This document shows, one piece after another, positions 1 through 7,168 of a DNA stretch of 21,663 nucleotides. Under the pieces are notes generated by a model. It worked only from the letters and a program-made list of their open reading frames with translations, ran no database searches and was not told where the DNA came from. Positions within the stretch are counted from its first letter, which is position 1. Each line of letters starts with the position of its first letter. The DNA comes from a virus, in IMG/VR virus record IMGVR_UViG_3300010149_000219, positions 1-21,663 of that record. One strand, 5' to 3'. A program made the translations under genes and the position numbers.

Positions 1-724
1 AACTATATAATTTATATATCATTTTAAATAGTTCAAAATTCTTTTCAATTTCATCTATTTGAAGTACTTTCCATCCTTTTCCTTGGATAACATTTTTCTG
101 TTTAGAAGGTCCTCTAGAATGAGCTTTCAACCATACGATACCTGTTCTTTCTATTTTTACTCCTTTTGATTCTTCTAGCGCTTTAGCATAAGATGCTAAC
201 TGTAGATCATAAGACTTATGAATAGAATTAGAAGTTTTAATATCTAGTAGCCAAACCTCTCCGTCAATCTTACATACTATATCTGCAGTTCCTGCATACT
301 TATGTTTATCTGACCATACGAATTCTTCTGCTGATATAAGTTCAGGTTTATATGTTGTCCAGAAGTCATGAAACTTTAAGATCATTTCCCATACTATTTG
401 AGAGTATTTAGCATTTCCATAATCATCCATCCAAGAAATCTCCTCTCCTAATATAAGCTTTTCACAAGCTTCATGTACTTGAGTTCCTTGTTTTCCTGCT
501 CTTCGCATAATAAGATCGGCGTTATGCCCAACGTCTTTGAGCCATGACTCGAAAAACTTATTCTTGGGCATATACTGGAGTATAGTAGTTACGGAAGGGT
601 AGTATACTCCTTCGCCTCTCTTATAAACTCTTCTATCTAAGAAATTTATTTGTTTAAGTTGTGGGTTAAAATCTAACCTCTTTTTTTCATTCTGTTCAAG
701 AATATTCATTCCTTGTTTTATCAT
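1..724 (-). CDS. PD-(D/E)XK (RecB/Cas4-like) nuclease, C-terminus cut by window edge
   Basis: The frame opens with ATG at 724 and stays open to the left edge, giving at least 241 residues. It shows the ordered signature of RecB/AddB/Cas4-type exonucleases: H84 (TQVHE), E133/E134 before a strand, G145-T-A-D148 (KYAGTAD), D161-I-K163 (LLDIKTS) and the following helix motif Q175-L-A-S-Y179. The D161-x-K163 pair with D148 is the expected metal site. Known members process DNA ends in recombination, repair or packaging; which of these applies here is not visible. The start overlaps the primase stop as ATGA, implying translational coupling. A second ATG at 709 lies directly after AAGGA, too close for a normal Shine-Dalgarno, so I prefer 724. 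Family assignment is strong; the precise role is inference. Confidence 0.85.
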   Translation of the reverse strand, partial: MIKQGMNILEQNEKKRLDFNPQLKQINFLDRRVYKRGEGVYYPSVTTILQYMPKNKFFESWLKDVGHNADLIMRRAGKQGTQVHEACEKLILGEEISWMDDYGNAKYSQIVWEMILKFHDFWTTYKPELISAEEFVWSDKHKYAGTADIVCKIDGEVWLLDIKTSNSIHKSYDLQLASYAKALEESKGVKIERTGIVWLKAHSRGPSKQKNVIQGKGWKVLQIDEIEKNFELFKMIYKLYS

Positions 725-1644
725 AGGTTTAATTTTTGCAACATTATTTTAGAAAAGTCTAATTCAGTTGCATGCTGTACTAACTCGGTAAATTTTTTAA
801 AACCCATATCGGATGGGTCTTTACCGTTTAGCTCGATTAAATACACTTTAAATCCTGCTGCTATAAGTTTTTCAGCAATCTCTAAAGCTTGGGTTTGTGC
901 ATCAGTATCTAATGCAATGTAAATGTCTGTAAGTTTTCCTGTTAATAATTTTTTCCAAAGTGATTTAGATAAGCTTTTACCTAATATGGGAATAGCGTTT
1001 CTTTTTATAGCCATTGCGTCAAATGCACCTTCACATAGTATAATAGGTGCATCCCAATTAATTAAATTCTCAAAAAAGATTACGTCTTTGGAAGCTTCCG
1101 GGTTTTTATACTTATAGTAGTTGCCATCATAACTTCTTCCAACAAAATAGTTGAGGTGATTGGATGAAGAATAACTTGGGATAATAACTCGTCCTCCATA
1201 CTCTCCACTTGTGCAGTATCCAATACTATATTTAATAAAATCATTGTCGCAAAGTCCTCTCTCATATAAGTAATTTTTAACCAAGTTAGCAACGACTGAT
1301 GTTTTAGAAGCACTGTGAAGTAGTTGGTACTCTTTTGGTAGTTCTACTATAGATAGTTGCTTATAGTCTATTTTAGAACCTTTTGGTAAATACTTTAGTA
1401 TTTCATTAGCTTGATCTCTAGGTGTTTTTAACTGCTTAAGAAGAGAGCGTATTGTTCGCCCTTTAGTTTGACATACCCAACATTCCCAAGGGTTATGCCC
1501 TTCTTCGTTGGTTGCCATATTAATTTCCAACTTAGGCTTTCTATGATTGCAGAAAGGACAGTGGAAGGCATGATTTTCTCTAGCTTTTTTATGAGATTTA
1601 CCTAGTAAGTTCTCAATAGAGCCTAGTAAGAATGTATAATCCAT
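721..1644 (-). CDS. DNA primase, DnaG/T4 gp61 type (zinc finger plus Toprim)
   Basis: This 307-residue protein should synthesise RNA primers for lagging-strand replication. An N-terminal CHC2-type zinc finger has ligands C29/C32 (HCPFC) and C55/C58 (CWVC). A DnaG-like polymerase N-lobe follows (GGRVIIPSYSS near 150, then FVGRSYDGNYYKYKNPEAS near 167-185), and then a Toprim domain with E205-G-A-F-D209 and D246-T-D248, ending in a GKDPSD motif near 275. No helicase domain is fused, and the length is close to T4 gp61 (about 340 residues), so a separate helicase is expected elsewhere. The stop overlaps the next gene's start by ATGA; 45 bp separate it from the upstream kinase-like gene. The start ATG at 1644 has only a weak GGAA upstream. 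Confidence 0.9.
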   Translation of the reverse strand: MDYTFLLGSIENLLGKSHKKARENHAFHCPFCNHRKPKLEINMATNEEGHNPWECWVCQTKGRTIRSLLKQLKTPRDQANEILKYLPKGSKIDYKQLSIVELPKEYQLLHSASKTSVVANLVKNYLYERGLCDNDFIKYSIGYCTSGEYGGRVIIPSYSSSNHLNYFVGRSYDGNYYKYKNPEASKDVIFFENLINWDAPIILCEGAFDAMAIKRNAIPILGKSLSKSLWKKLLTGKLTDIYIALDTDAQTQALEIAEKLIAAGFKVYLIELNGKDPSDMGFKKFTELVQHATELDFSKIMLQKLNL

Positions 1645-1689: not shown

Positions 1690-2118
1690 CTAAATATCAA
1701 CTAATTTAAGGTGATTTTTTTGATTTACCATTATATTAGAAGGTCTAATATCTAATTCATCAGGATCAATACCGTGCTGTTCTGCTTCTCTATTGACATT
1801 CTCAACCCAATCTTCAGGTATTTCACCTTTAAATTCTCCTAATACTTCCATCTGTATAATTCCTAATTTAGGGTTAATAACTTCTACTTCGTATATTCTA
1901 GCAAAGTTATTTGTTTTTTTACCTTTAAGTATTTCAGCATGTACTAACTCGATTTCGTCTGTGGTTACTTTATATACTCTTCCATTAAGTAAATATGCTG
2001 AACCGTAATCTCCGGAGCCTAAATGTTTACCTCCTAGGTCTACTATCTTATCTACCTCTTTTTCAAATTCTGGATCGTAGTAAAGAATCTCTCCTAATAT
2101 GACGTGTGAAAGTCTCAT
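1690..2118 (-). CDS. Miniature protein-kinase-like protein with short N-terminal leader
   Basis: The 142-residue product follows the order of protein-kinase landmarks: glycine loop G34-S-G-D-Y-G39, ATP-binding-type lysine K50 (RVYK), a possible alpha-C glutamate E62, a hinge-like IIQMEVL (87-93), a catalytic-loop equivalent D123-I-R-P-S-N128 in place of DLKPEN, and D141 in LKLVDI as the DFG-type aspartate. The protein stops one residue later, so no activation segment or C-lobe is encoded; reading through the TAG would add only about eight residues before another stop. The N-terminus (MRLSHVILGE) resembles that of the upstream neighbour (MKLSNIILE). A kinase-like fold is inferred from motifs; activity and substrate are unknown. 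It may instead be a pseudokinase or nucleotide-binding protein. Confidence 0.6.
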   Translation of the reverse strand: MRLSHVILGEILYYDPEFEKEVDKIVDLGGKHLGSGDYGSAYLLNGRVYKVTTDEIELVHAEILKGKKTNNFARIYEVEVINPKLGIIQMEVLGEFKGEIPEDWVENVNREAEQHGIDPDELDIRPSNIMVNQKNHLKLVDI

Positions 2119-2124
2119 ACATGA

Positions 2125-2469
2125 TTAATTAGAAGGTTTTTTAAAGTGGAACTTTATTTTAGGGTAGTAATAACGTTCACCGGGATCTTCATCAAAGTAT
2201 TTAGAATCGGATTGAATATCGTAACCTAAAGATTTTAAATGATCAAGAATTTTATTCCATTCTTCATCTTTAAAGTCAGAATGCACTAGAAAGGTTACTG
2301 AGCCAAAACTTAAGTCTTTTAAAGGATCGTTATCCGGTCTTCCGTCGCTATAATCTCCCAAGGATACTATTAGCCTACCGGTGTCAAATTTAGATTCTAA
2401 TTCTTTCTCTAAAGCATCTTCTTCAGCTTTGTATTGACCGTATTCTAATATGATATTCGATAGTTTCAT
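2125..2469 (-). CDS. Unknown 114-residue acidic protein with MKLSNIILE leader
   Basis: I do not recognise this family. The product is acidic with an alpha/beta look: a helix around 13-28 (KAEEDALEKELESKF), strands near 31-37 and 55-63, a helix at 66-81 (FKDEEWNKILDHLKSLGY) and a terminal strand (YPKIKFHFKK). Its first nine residues mirror the leader of the downstream kinase-like protein. The start is supported by AAGGA five bases upstream and by an ATGA overlap with the 45-residue gene before it. The next gene follows after 6 bp. It could be a small virion-internal or host-modifying protein, but that is inference. Confidence 0.7.
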   Translation of the reverse strand: MKLSNIILEYGQYKAEEDALEKELESKFDTGRLIVSLGDYSDGRPDNDPLKDLSFGSVTFLVHSDFKDEEWNKILDHLKSLGYDIQSDSKYFDEDPGERYYYPKIKFHFKKPSN

Positions 2470-2852: not shown

Positions 2853-3605
2853 CTACCAGTATCCTGAAAAGTTTCTTGAACCTCCTAAAGACTTCCAATA
2901 GCGCCCTATATTACAAGACCAGTATCCTGGTTTAGTTTTATCTTTCTTAGTAGAACATTTATGTCTAGCTGCGAAAGAAGCTCTAGCTCCTGGTTCTTTG
3001 ATTTTAACTGATAAATTACCGCTATCTCCAAAGTTTACTTTTTTTACATTACCAGTTTTTGGATTTTTAACATAAACGTAAAACTTTTTAGGTCCACCTC
3101 TTTTAGGTTTATTTAACGCTACATCTTTACCTTTATATTCTGCTTCATCAATTTTATTCATATCTCTGTCAGATACCCAATATGAGGCTATACTTCCAGG
3201 TGTAGCTCCTGAATTTTTAACTTGTTTAATATATTCTTCAGCTTCTTCTTTTGAAAATACTCTCGGTTCTTCATAATCAGATTCAGCTGATCTTACTAAT
3301 GATTTACCAGTTCTAGGTCCACGGTTAACAGTTACGTAATATTCTTCTTCATATACCATAGGAAGATCTAAAGGTACTTTTTCTCCTTCATACATTCCGT
3401 ACTCTCCTATATCGGTGGATTCTAGTAATTGAGCATCTTCTTCGTTTAGTTCTATAAGACCGTCTCTCCAAGCGTCTCTCGCTTCAGCAAATAATTGTAT
3501 AAAGTTATCACTAGAGTAACGGTAGACATTCTCATACAAAGAGAGATTGTTATCTACATGGTACTGTAGAGATGGTAATCCTACTAAATCTTTAATTTTT
3601 ATCAT
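2853..3605 (-). CDS. DUF5872-domain phage protein
   Basis: The 250-residue product has two parts. Residues 1-85 are a helical, acidic module beginning MIKIKDLVGLPSLQYHVDNN and running to the VPLDLPM segment near 77-83. Residues 172-250 match the DUF5872 pattern as I know it: KKFYVYVKNPKTGNVKKVNFGD, then R214-H215-x-C217, then GYWSC231. The H/C/C residues could form a small metal site, though this is unproven. An intermediate region (86-170) contains a short helix with acidic residues (SKEEAEEYIKQVK). The gene overlaps the GIY-YIG gene end by 14 bp. DUF5872 has no known function that I can cite; it is seen in phages, often near structural genes. A virion-associated role is inference. Confidence 0.75.
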   Translation of the reverse strand: MIKIKDLVGLPSLQYHVDNNLSLYENVYRYSSDNFIQLFAEARDAWRDGLIELNEEDAQLLESTDIGEYGMYEGEKVPLDLPMVYEEEYYVTVNRGPRTGKSLVRSAESDYEEPRVFSKEEAEEYIKQVKNSGATPGSIASYWVSDRDMNKIDEAEYKGKDVALNKPKRGGPKKFYVYVKNPKTGNVKKVNFGDSGNLSVKIKEPGARASFAARHKCSTKKDKTKPGYWSCNIGRYWKSLGGSRNFSGYW

Positions 3606-4080
3606 TTACAAAATCTTTTTTATAAAACTTACCTAAAATATTATCGTTTATAAAGTTGTTTCTATCTTCTAATACTTCGTTTATAAATAGGTACTTACAT
3701 TCATAATACGTTAATAACTTCTTATTAGGTACGAAGCTAAGTATTTTTCTTGAAAATTCAAACTGGCCGCCAGATTTAATTATATCTAATATCTCTTTAT
3801 GAGAACCGTAATATTCTTTCCAATCAGATTCTTTAACAACCTTTTTCTTCATTGGTACTCTTCCTCCAATTCCTTTTGCTTTTCTTTCTTCTTTTAATAA
3901 TAAGGATTCTTTTTTTCCAATCTTAACATTGCGTTCAAAGAAGAGTACTTTTTTACCAATATACTTTCTACCTGTTGGGGTGTGAGTAGTTTGGTAAATA
4001 AATCCGTAAGTGCCATCAGGCATGTCGGAAATATCTGTTACGATTTTCCCATCATACCACCAAGAAGGTTTAGTTACCAT
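3592..4080 (-). CDS. GIY-YIG family endonuclease
   Basis: Counting from the ATG at 4080 the product is 162 residues. It carries a GIY-YIG core: YGFIY, then ten residues later KYIGKK, followed by a lysine-rich insert, the ESDWKEYYGSHKEI block, an arginine (SRKIL) and a YYECKYLF helix whose Glu is the likely metal ligand. A TTG 18 bases upstream (4098) is in frame and would overlap the fibre gene stop, but the ATG has an AAA-rich upstream context and leaves a normal 10-bp gap, so I prefer it. Known relatives in phages are either stand-alone homing nucleases or resident phage endonucleases; no recognised DNA-binding (NUMOD-like) tail is evident. Position between the fibre operon and accessory genes is compatible with either. 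Confidence 0.82.
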   Translation of the reverse strand: MVTKPSWWYDGKIVTDISDMPDGTYGFIYQTTHTPTGRKYIGKKVLFFERNVKIGKKESLLLKEERKAKGIGGRVPMKKKVVKESDWKEYYGSHKEILDIIKSGGQFEFSRKILSFVPNKKLLTYYECKYLFINEVLEDRNNFINDNILGKFYKKDFVNDKN

Positions 4081-4090
4081 TTTACTATTA

Positions 4091-7000
4091 CTAGACAAAT
4101 GCTATTTTACATATTGAAGAACCGTCTGGGCTGAAATATAAACATCCTGCTCCTGCTGATCCTGAATGAAATATTGAACCTTGTGCTAGGTTAGTTGGTG
4201 TAGCATCGAGAATTTCTAATGTTAAAAGACCTGTAGCATCTACTGAGCTTCCTGATATTAATAAGTTGTTTACTGCAGTGGTATCTGGTGTATTCACAGT
4301 TAAATGAGATCCAATGATAAATGAATTACAAGCTGTTGATGTTACTTCATTGTTTAGACCTCCAAGTATACCTCCAAATGCAGCACTTACTTTGTTAGTA
4401 CTACCTCCGGCAATTACAGTGTTTTGACATAGTGCGCAGTTAGCAGATCCACCACCTACGAAAGCGTAGCAAGCTGCTATATTGTTAATACCTCCTCCAA
4501 TAGTACTATAATGTCCAAATAGTTGCGAACAGTTTCCATATCCTCCTCCAATTGTACCGTGCTCAGAACCTTCTATTCTATTAAGTCGACCACCGGCAAT
4601 AGTTCCTAAACACTGTGAAATAGTATTTTGAATTCCACCTCCTATAGAAGAGAATTGTCCTGCTGTCAACTGGTTACAACTACCTCCTGCAATTGTGCTA
4701 TAAGCACTATTTGTTTCTATCCTATTGCAAAAACCTCCTCCGATTATACCGTAAGTACTACAAATAGTGTTGCATTGTCCACCTACGACTGTACTTACAT
4801 TACCTCTAACGCAGTTTATTTTACCTCCTGCGATTACACCGTATGCATGTTCAACAATGTTTCCCTGTCCTCCAGCTATCGTAGCAAATTGAGCGGCAGT
4901 TTTATTAGAATCTCCACCACCTATAAATTGAGCGTTGCAGATGCATGAGTTTAAAGATTCAATTGTATTATTAAGACCTCCTACAATAGCTGCTCCTGAT
5001 TGAGATGCACCGTCGATGCGGTTGTTACTTCCAGCGCCAATGAATGAAAAACAGCTGTAGTTAATTAAGTTCGATTCTCCTGAACCAATCATTCCGTTGC
5101 ATCCAGTTTGTTGCATAGAATTAGATGCACCTGCGACAATTGCGGAATTTGCATGAGTTGTACAATTGTTATTACCTGCTCCTATAATAGCTGAGTTTCC
5201 TACGTTACAGTTTCTATATCCTGCTCCTATCATTCCATATGTCGAACCATTATCATTACATAATCCTGCAACTATAGCACTCATAAGACCTGTTTGAGTT
5301 TGACATTGTCCTCCTAAAATAGAAGAACCAGATCCGTGAGTTAGTGTATATGAATGTCTATTTCCAACTATTAATCCATCACTGTAAATTTCTCCATTAA
5401 CAGTTAATTTACCTTGACTTCCAGAATTGATTGGATCTAATCTCATTGACTCATATGTGCCTCCTGCAGTTGTATGAGTCCATTTAAAGTATTCGTTATT
5501 ATTATCTCTAGTATTAAACTCTAATCTAGAATCTGTATCTCCATCTCCTGTATTGTAGAACTTAATAGAAGCACCGTCTGTGTTCATTGACCATACTATA
5601 CCTTTTCCTGATGTTTTAAACGAAGTACTACCTGAATGTTGTAAGTTACCTCCTATAATAACATCTGAGTTAAATTTTGATGTACCTACTACTGTAAGTT
5701 TATATCCTGTATCAGTATCTGTACCGCCTGTTCCTCCAATCTGCCAGTTACTACTTCCGCTATGTATTAGTCCTGCAAAGCCTGTTGCTCCGCTGGTATC
5801 CATATCAGAACCTGCATAGAAAGCAAAATCACCGGTAGTTAGAATTTCAGATGTAGTAGTTCCTGCTACCATACCGATTGCATGAGTACCTAAATCTGTT
5901 GCTCCATTAACTACTTTAAGTCTAGAAATAATACCACCTGCTCCTTGAGAAGGAGGATATTCTGATACATCTACATATCCGTATGCAGCTAAAGTATAAT
6001 CTGATGTTGTATTCTCTGTTCTATCATCATATACTTCAAATTGAGAACCTAATACTTTATCGTAATGGTCATTAGGGTGTCCAAATAAACCTTTACCATC
6101 ACCTCTAATCATGAATCTAGCAATAGCGTTATCCCATCCATCTACTTGTGCAGTACCAAAAGTAATACCGCCGTCGCCTACGTTGTCGTCTATAGCATTA
6201 ACAATCCAGAATCTGTTTCCAGTACCTGCTACTGTTCCGTTTGATGTGTCATCAATTATATTGAAACCAACAGCTGCATTTTCTGAACCTCCATCTTGTT
6301 TGAATAGTATAGATGGGTTATCATTTTCACCTGTAAGGTCTGTGTTGGTTGGATCTGCTTCTATTGTTAAAGTTGCATCATTCCCTGCTTCTGCTTTAAT
6401 AAGTAGGTTTCTACTTAATTTTACCTCATTGGTATTAAAGTTTGCAACTTCTGTTCCACCTAAAGAGAATATTTTAAAGTTTTCAGAATCATGTGAGATG
6501 TAACCACCATCGCCTACTCCGTCTTTATCACCTATCATAAAGTCACCAGAATTATTCATAAATGCAATCTGGTTTCCTTGAACACCAATGTTTAATACAT
6601 CATTACCTACAGCATATGATGGGTGGTCGACATGTAGAGTAGCTGTAGCTGATGCAGTTCCAATTCCTATACGGAAGTTAGAATTTGCTGTTAAAACAGT
6701 TTTTTGATCATTCTTTATTTTTATAGTAGAAGAATCTCCAGTGATAAGAGCACCATCACCAAGTCTTTGAGTATCTCCAATTACAAAACTACCATTAAGT
6801 GGATTAGCAACCAATACATCATCTCCTTGATTTGTAACTTTGAATTCACCGCCTTGAACACCTAATGAGCCAGTAAATCCGTGATTATCATCTGAAGTAT
6901 CTCCAAACTTAGTAGAACCGTCTTCAAATACTACTGAAGCATTATCGAACTCTGTGCGTACTTCTTGTGCTGTTAATGTTCCTCCTACAGTTAGATCTCC

Positions 7001-7168
7001 CTCTACTGTTGTTGTTCCTTTAAATACTGTGCTTCCTTCTAGTAGATTAGTACCTGATAAGGTAGTAGCTCCGTTGTGGGTAAGTGAACCAGTAATAGTA
7101 GTATTCCCATCTATACTAATATGGTTACTGGAATTAGGTTGTATCTTATTTACTTTTAATGTGCTCAT
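4091..7168 (-). CDS. Large tail fibre/adhesin with cysteine-rich YadA-like beta-roll
   Basis: The 1025-residue fibre starts MSTLKVNKIQ, an N-terminus typical of environmental myophage fibres. Residues 20-102 are beta-strand repeats (TTITGSLTHNG, TVEGDLTVGGTLT) ending in an EVRTEF...GSTKFGDT module shared with the next fibre gene upstream. Residues 110-610 are Gly/Asp/Ser-rich beta segments (IGDxxxxGDGG motifs, TATLHV, LEFNTRDNN). Residues 613-955 contain 22 repeats of about 16 residues with consensus S-x-I-x-G-G-x-x-N-x-I, as in trimeric-autotransporter head domains. The C-terminus (GCLYFSPDGSSICKIAFV) has no S74 chaperone. It is likely the receptor-binding long fibre, trimeric by analogy. 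No cysteine occurs before residue 622; 21 follow. It lies 1 bp from the 262-residue fibre gene and 10 bp from the nuclease. Confidence 0.85.
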   Translation of the reverse strand: MSTLKVNKIQPNSSNHISIDGNTTITGSLTHNGATTLSGTNLLEGSTVFKGTTTVEGDLTVGGTLTAQEVRTEFDNASVVFEDGSTKFGDTSDDNHGFTGSLGVQGGEFKVTNQGDDVLVANPLNGSFVIGDTQRLGDGALITGDSSTIKIKNDQKTVLTANSNFRIGIGTASATATLHVDHPSYAVGNDVLNIGVQGNQIAFMNNSGDFMIGDKDGVGDGGYISHDSENFKIFSLGGTEVANFNTNEVKLSRNLLIKAEAGNDATLTIEADPTNTDLTGENDNPSILFKQDGGSENAAVGFNIIDDTSNGTVAGTGNRFWIVNAIDDNVGDGGITFGTAQVDGWDNAIARFMIRGDGKGLFGHPNDHYDKVLGSQFEVYDDRTENTTSDYTLAAYGYVDVSEYPPSQGAGGIISRLKVVNGATDLGTHAIGMVAGTTTSEILTTGDFAFYAGSDMDTSGATGFAGLIHSGSSNWQIGGTGGTDTDTGYKLTVVGTSKFNSDVIIGGNLQHSGSTSFKTSGKGIVWSMNTDGASIKFYNTGDGDTDSRLEFNTRDNNNEYFKWTHTTAGGTYESMRLDPINSGSQGKLTVNGEIYSDGLIVGNRHSYTLTHGSGSSILGGQCQTQTGLMSAIVAGLCNDNGSTYGMIGAGYRNCNVGNSAIIGAGNNNCTTHANSAIVAGASNSMQQTGCNGMIGSGESNLINYSCFSFIGAGSNNRIDGASQSGAAIVGGLNNTIESLNSCICNAQFIGGGDSNKTAAQFATIAGGQGNIVEHAYGVIAGGKINCVRGNVSTVVGGQCNTICSTYGIIGGGFCNRIETNSAYSTIAGGSCNQLTAGQFSSIGGGIQNTISQCLGTIAGGRLNRIEGSEHGTIGGGYGNCSQLFGHYSTIGGGINNIAACYAFVGGGSANCALCQNTVIAGGSTNKVSAAFGGILGGLNNEVTSTACNSFIIGSHLTVNTPDTTAVNNLLISGSSVDATGLLTLEILDATPTNLAQGSIFHSGSAGAGCLYFSPDGSSICKIAFV
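4304..5332 (-). repeat. 22-copy beta-roll repeat region in the large fibre gene
   Basis: This covers residues 613-955. The I-x-G-G cores recur at residues 617, 632, 647, 661, 677, 693, 710, 728, 749, 764, 779, 795, 809, 826, 842, 857, 873, 890, 904, 919, 934 and 951, spaced 14-21 residues apart with a mean near 16. At DNA level the copies are diverged rather than perfect, so this is an old protein-level repeat, not a recent tandem duplication. Confidence 0.85.
6863..7003 (-). repeat. Fibre module copy C (GSTKFGDT module)
   Basis: Residues 56-102 of the large fibre. By eye it matches copy B in the upstream gene at 37 of 47 residues. The module carries TLTAQEVRTEF and DGSTKFGDT. Confidence 0.8.

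Follow-up and report, generated by a model that had tools for sequence, protein, structure and literature searches.

Can a protein kinase fold that stops at its DFG-type aspartate still function, and in which capacity? The question is raised by a gene on the minus strand of the viral record IMGVR_UViG_3300010149_000219 of IMG/VR, of which positions 1 to 21,663 (21,663 nucleotides) were analysed and are referred to as the window. Its 142-residue product, here called the half-kinase, ends with LKLVDI directly before a TAG stop codon. According to our favoured reading, to which a probability of about 0.6 was given, the half-kinase is a stand-alone nucleotide-dependent module which would be inactive by itself and would need a partner or dimerization; the packaging of the protein through its leader is less certain.

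Motif set and predicted fold

Conservation was determined from an alignment of 44 sequences, 25 from a marine clade and 19 from a freshwater clade, and the structure was predicted with AlphaFold2 (AF2), the confidence of which is given as the predicted local distance difference test (pLDDT). The features of the gene are as follows.

1690..2118, minus strand: half-kinase gene, 142 aa, C-terminus LKLVDI followed by TAG (open reading frame (ORF) and 107 homologous loci)
2002..2019, minus strand: glycine-rich loop G34-S-G-D-Y-G39 (G34, G36, D37, Y38 and G39 unchanged in the 44 sequences of both clades)
1969..1971, minus strand: K50, the VAIK-type lysine of beta3 (unchanged in 44/44)
1948..1950, minus strand: E57, the likely alpha-C glutamate, in the AF2 helix 55-64 (unchanged in 44/44; salt bridge putative)
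1750..1752, minus strand: D123, HRD-type catalytic aspartate, restricted to the marine clade (D in all 25 marine rows)
1735..1737, minus strand: N128, Mg-binding asparagine of the catalytic loop (unchanged in 44/44)
1696..1698, minus strand: D141, DFG-type aspartate (unchanged in 44/44; matches the CDK2 DFG position)
2089..2118, minus strand: residues 1-10, MRLSHVILGE, proposed leader similar to the T4 capsid-targeting sequence and containing L8-x-E10 (44/44 rows; pLDDT 34)

In the translated ORF the glycine loop, K50, D123-I-R-P-S-N128 and D141 were followed by I142 and the stop codon. D123 lies 5 residues before N128, and N128 lies 13 before D141; this spacing equals that of the HRD aspartate, the asparagine and the DFG aspartate in kinases and confirmed the motif order and spacing read in the initial annotation. 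The same annotation had taken E62 as the alpha-C glutamate; this position was found to vary (E, Q, L, H, T, K, A, V, R), whereas E57 did not. The Pfam Pkinase model matched the window protein at residues 123-141 only, with 13.6 bits, below the gathering cut-off of 31.7, and a weak Pkinase match was detected in 18 of 20 family members (best E 0.043).

With the two-clade alignment, AF2 resulted in a pLDDT of 89.0 and a predicted template modelling score of 0.81, and the five models (pLDDT 86.3-89.0) were in agreement. When only the marine clade was supplied, the pLDDT reached 78; it rose to 89 when the sister clade was added. Very low confidence was confined to residues 1-11. The predicted order of secondary structure was a helix (16-27), three strands, alpha-C (55-64), two strands, an alpha-E-like helix (102-114), the catalytic loop and the beta7-beta8 hairpin. 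Foldseek retrieved 516 PDB chains at E<=1e-3, and all of those listed were protein kinases. In VIA comparisons, where unrelated models usually top out at Z 7-8, a Z of 10.4 was obtained with both CDKL1 (root-mean-square deviation 3.7, 115 residues aligned) and CDK2 (3.2, 108 residues). The alignments to kinases covered about residues 21-142 of the model; for CDK2, residues 6-146 of the chain corresponded to 29-142 of the model, so that the half-kinase stops at the CDK2 DFG position. Sequence relatives in the PDB were weak only; those found with the profile were mostly protein kinases (E 0.07 or worse), the top ones in the same register. Because the Z values, the motif register and the consistent matches were taken together, the predicted fold is near certain to be that of a kinase N-lobe with the catalytic loop (subdomains I-VII), and the kinase-like character proposed for the protein was thus borne out by structure prediction and fold search. 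The activation segment, the APE motif and the helical C-terminal lobe (C-lobe) are missing.

A fixed and selected end point

Pattern and tblastn searches of IMG/VR resulted in 75 marine-clade loci. The tblastn search of GenBank phages detected the Flavobacterium phage immuto (44% identity), and with the immuto protein as a query 32 more loci were obtained. The family was found on 107 viral contigs of marine and freshwater phages of the T4-like group, with protein lengths of about 142-150 residues. In 106 of the 107 loci the protein stops at exactly the same codon, one residue past the DFG-type aspartate and directly after D-I or D-V (66 TAG, 40 TAA); in the remaining one the contig runs out before the gene end. 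Reading through the stop codon added 8 residues in L001, the protein of which is identical to that of the window, and 0-31 residues in other loci. As the DnaG primase gene follows after 45 nt, there is no space for a C-lobe.

The median ratio of nonsynonymous to synonymous substitutions (dN/dS) of the half-kinase was 0.096 (504 pairs), and purifying selection was tightest at residues 121-142, from the catalytic loop to the end (ratio of nonsynonymous to synonymous polymorphisms 0.12). Because a median dN/dS of about 0.1 coincides with a fixed stop, the sequences argue, with near certainty, that the end is old and under selection and that the gene is not broken. The initial statements that the protein ends one residue past the aspartate, that it bears no C-lobe remnant and that it is not a fresh nonsense mutant therefore held across the family.

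The family profile found one copy per genome and no paralogues. Among cellular sequences, 83 GTDB contig stretches fitted the strict patterns, none of which was confirmed as a relative, and the NCBIfam and PADLOC searches gave nothing useful. A further freshwater copy (L122:3001-3441) is interrupted within alpha-C by an in-frame stop (DSE*LEDA) and carries K in place of the catalytic Asp; it represents either a sequencing error or a decaying gene.

Two clades and the catalytic aspartate

The marine clade and the Immutovirus/freshwater sister clade share 42-46% identity. The positions unchanged between them include G34, G36, G39, K50, T52-T53-D54, E57, N128, D141 and, outside the core, E10. The set K50/D123/N128/D141, on which the initial annotation was based, was conserved in part: K50, N128 and D141 in all the rows, and D123 in the marine clade only. 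The 19 freshwater rows had S (16), R (2) or L (1) at position 123. Since the freshwater clade keeps K50, N128 and D141 without D123, the function common to both clades is probably nucleotide/Mg binding more than phosphotransfer. Of the two readings offered initially, a partner-dependent phosphotransferase and a nucleotide-binding pseudokinase, the common kinase basis was upheld and the emphasis is shifted by the freshwater clade to nucleotide/Mg binding.

Proposed mechanism

Nucleotide binding by the half-kinase is likely, judged by the conserved residues, and partner dependence is the best-supported mechanism. The protein would bind ATP-Mg, and alone it would neither hold nor phosphorylate a protein substrate because the activation segment and the C-lobe are absent. 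It would act as a nucleotide-dependent regulatory module which docks either on a protein of the host or the phage or on itself. For the marine members, which have D123, the partner may complete the active site. With less certainty, residues 1-10 would serve as a T4-type capsid-targeting leader by which the half-kinase is packed into the head; a gp21-type protease would trim it after E10, and the protein would be injected with the DNA.

The following points weigh against this reading. ATP binding was deduced solely from conserved residues, the complete conservation of D123 in the marine clade fits real catalysis there, and T7 gp0.7 demonstrates that a phage kinase domain with little past the DFG site can be active alone (PMC4858673). 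The points concerning the injection step are given with the leader below.

Alternative explanations

The strongest alternative, although unlikely, is that the half-kinase works without a partner as a minimal but active Ser/Thr kinase like T7 gp0.7 and has dispensed with the C-lobe function, the Immutovirus clade being a secondary pseudokinase. D123-x-R-x-x-N and D141 are intact in all marine members, and the T7 gp0.7 family is the closest among phage families, its N-terminal domain of about 30 kDa being an active Ser/Thr kinase alone (PMC4858673). The annotated kinase of Aquamicrobium phage P14 also ends early, 9 residues past the DFG-type aspartate. However, the active domain of T7 gp0.7 reaches some tens of residues past Asp 213, as estimated from its mass, and the half-kinase only one. 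SteC cut shortly past the DFG-like site does not phosphorylate its substrate (PMC13395416), and the catalytic aspartate is missing in the whole sister clade.

A structural or inhibitory kinase mimic without nucleotide binding, whose kinase residues would serve folding or target docking, is less probable still. The clade without the catalytic aspartate and the lack of an activation segment and C-lobe would suit such a protein, but the glycine loop, K50, N128 and D141, which provide the nucleotide/Mg contacts, are among the few unchanged positions.

It is very improbable that a C-lobe encoded elsewhere in the phage genome completes a split kinase. Every member stops exactly at the junction of the N-lobe and the activation segment, as such an enzyme might; yet the adjacent variable ORF, the conserved 86-aa protein and the primase are all non-kinase-like, and the single copy per genome also speaks against it, though the family profile is blind to a C-lobe.

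A full kinase masked by a nonsense mutation, an assembly error or stop-codon recoding can be dismissed, since TAG ends most marine members but TAA stands at the same site in 40 loci on many independent contigs, with a read-through of at most 31 residues and the primase 45 nt away. Stop-codon recoding and a pseudogene were each ruled out by the fixed end in 106 loci.

The leader and possible packaging

The capsid-targeting sequence of T4 IPIII comprises 10 residues, its processing is set by residues 8 and 10, and gp21 cleaves after L/I-X-E (PMC9026906). The leader ends with L8-G9-E10 in the window protein and with L8-K9-E10 in immuto. L or I at alignment position 8 and E at position 10 were found in all the rows, some members being shifted by one, so that the glutamate is residue 9. 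ORFs with the leader motif exceeded the shuffled expectation in the genomes G002 (9 versus 0.38), G001 (7 versus 0.27) and G014 (4 versus 0.32), and most of those in G002 and G001 lie within the late gene cluster. Peptidase_S77 (PF03420, the gp21 family) was detected above the cut-off in all four related genomes tested; the 21.7 kb window lies outside that region.

Several observations count against the injection step. The leader motif was worded from G002, and G001 has orthologues, so that these tests are not independent. The motif count in Immutovirus was weak (2 versus 0.39; 54 of 1000 shuffles), and the bare [LI]xE at residues 9-11 was not enriched genome-wide (11 versus 8.2; 12 versus 9.5). 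The residue following E10 is I or V, and no virion proteomics was found for these phages.

Judged by the leader sequence, packaging of the half-kinase in the phage head is a tentative proposal, somewhat short of an even chance, and injection into the host is plausible. An extended version, in which the head-packaged half-kinase is injected and a host protein completes its site or reads its ATP-bound state at the start of infection, would make it a delivered counterpart of OspG, with the sister lineage as a pure ATP-binding switch; this version is rather doubtful.

Several unrelated small ORFs of the late cluster share the leader MKLxxI[IL]xE (window 2125-2469; L132:7964-8377; L132:9797-10225; L133:13061-13603), pointing to a protein set with one putative targeting signal. 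A Zeta_toxin-family P-loop protein of 313 aa (PF06414, E 4e-12; L132:13011-13949, at about 73.0 kb in G002) starts with MIKLSTLILE, a leader of the same type as that of the half-kinase, and is encoded about 3 kb from it; an orthologue is located at about 146.5 kb in G001. This protein is possibly another packaged phosphotransferase. Small proteins starting with MKKSxIxKAx[KQ]E and containing VGGYxTxxAFS (L133:9178-9408; L080:23355-23576) had no PHROG match. They are likely head-core components because the Immutovirus copy is flanked by the genes for the portal and the prohead protease.

Gene neighbourhood

The neighbouring genes of the half-kinase in the window are as follows.

721..1644, minus strand: DnaG-type primase, the next gene downstream, at 45 nt (phrog_47, E 7.7e-43)
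2125..2469, minus strand: variable upstream neighbour, 114 aa, starting with MKLSNIILE, a leader of the same type (no kinase match)

Among the loci with room, the primase was found downstream in 72/72 marine and 29/31 freshwater ones. The gap between the half-kinase and the primase ATG was mostly 37-53 nt in marine loci with a recognised primase start. The 114-aa upstream neighbour was present in 37/73 marine loci and 1/30 freshwater loci, and genes of the 86-aa and phrog_7595 types were located upstream of the half-kinase in 68/73 and 30/30 loci, respectively. A C-lobe in an adjacent gene was rejected, as none of the flanking genes resembles a kinase and the one directly upstream is not conserved.

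The protein encoded at window 3592-4098 matched phrog_447, labelled NAD synthetase, and also homing-endonuclease PHROGs; these matches cast doubt on the label NAD synthetase in phage records. The product of window 4091-7168 (1025 aa) resembles a tail fibre and has long Cys-rich repeats (IAGGxxNxI / IGGGxxN) close to its C-terminus.

Significance and comparison with known kinases

For a natural protein with a kinase fold, the half-kinase is very small, and its end at the DFG aspartate is maintained in about a hundred phage contigs. The family allows a direct test of what one half of a kinase is capable of by itself. As one clade has the catalytic aspartate and the other does not, the two constitute a natural experiment in which nucleotide binding is separated from catalysis. 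Should the leader be a packaging signal, kinase folds and the neighbouring zeta-toxin-like phosphotransferase would join the proteins that T4-like phages may inject.

The half-kinase resembles the T4 internal proteins IPI-III and Alt in its leader: both leaders are ten residues long and contain L/I-X-E, and in both cases the phage genomes encode a gp21-type protease. In contrast to these, the mature part of the half-kinase is a predicted kinase fold and its packaging is putative.

OspG and NleH match kinase subdomains I-VII only and need ubiquitin (PMC7943720). According to the published descriptions, their activity is weak or absent until ubiquitin or E2-ubiquitin binds (PMC7943720, PMC13395416), which is the likeness to the half-kinase. 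However, they are bacterial effectors acting on eukaryotic ubiquitin, and OspG uses its own C-terminal region for partner binding. The SteC kinase domain likewise has a depleted C-lobe, and its truncated domain was among the weak profile matches (8jbi, E 0.25).

The T7 gp0.7 kinase family (PHROG 15752/2828) likewise has a kinase fold without a canonical C-lobe, and its glycine-loop/lysine region is alignable. The best E value with phrog_15752 among the members was 4.5e-5, and 0.58 for the window protein itself; hhalign to T7 gp0.7 resulted in an E of 6.6e-4 over 32 columns of the glycine-loop region. T7 gp0.7 differs in that it is encoded by an early gene, carries a shut-off domain at its C-terminus and is a proven kinase, whereas the half-kinase has a shorter linker, ends one residue after the aspartate and lacks the catalytic aspartate in one of its two clades. 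A reduced C-lobe is thus already known in phage kinases, P14 being a further example, and the family of the window is the most extreme case among those compared.
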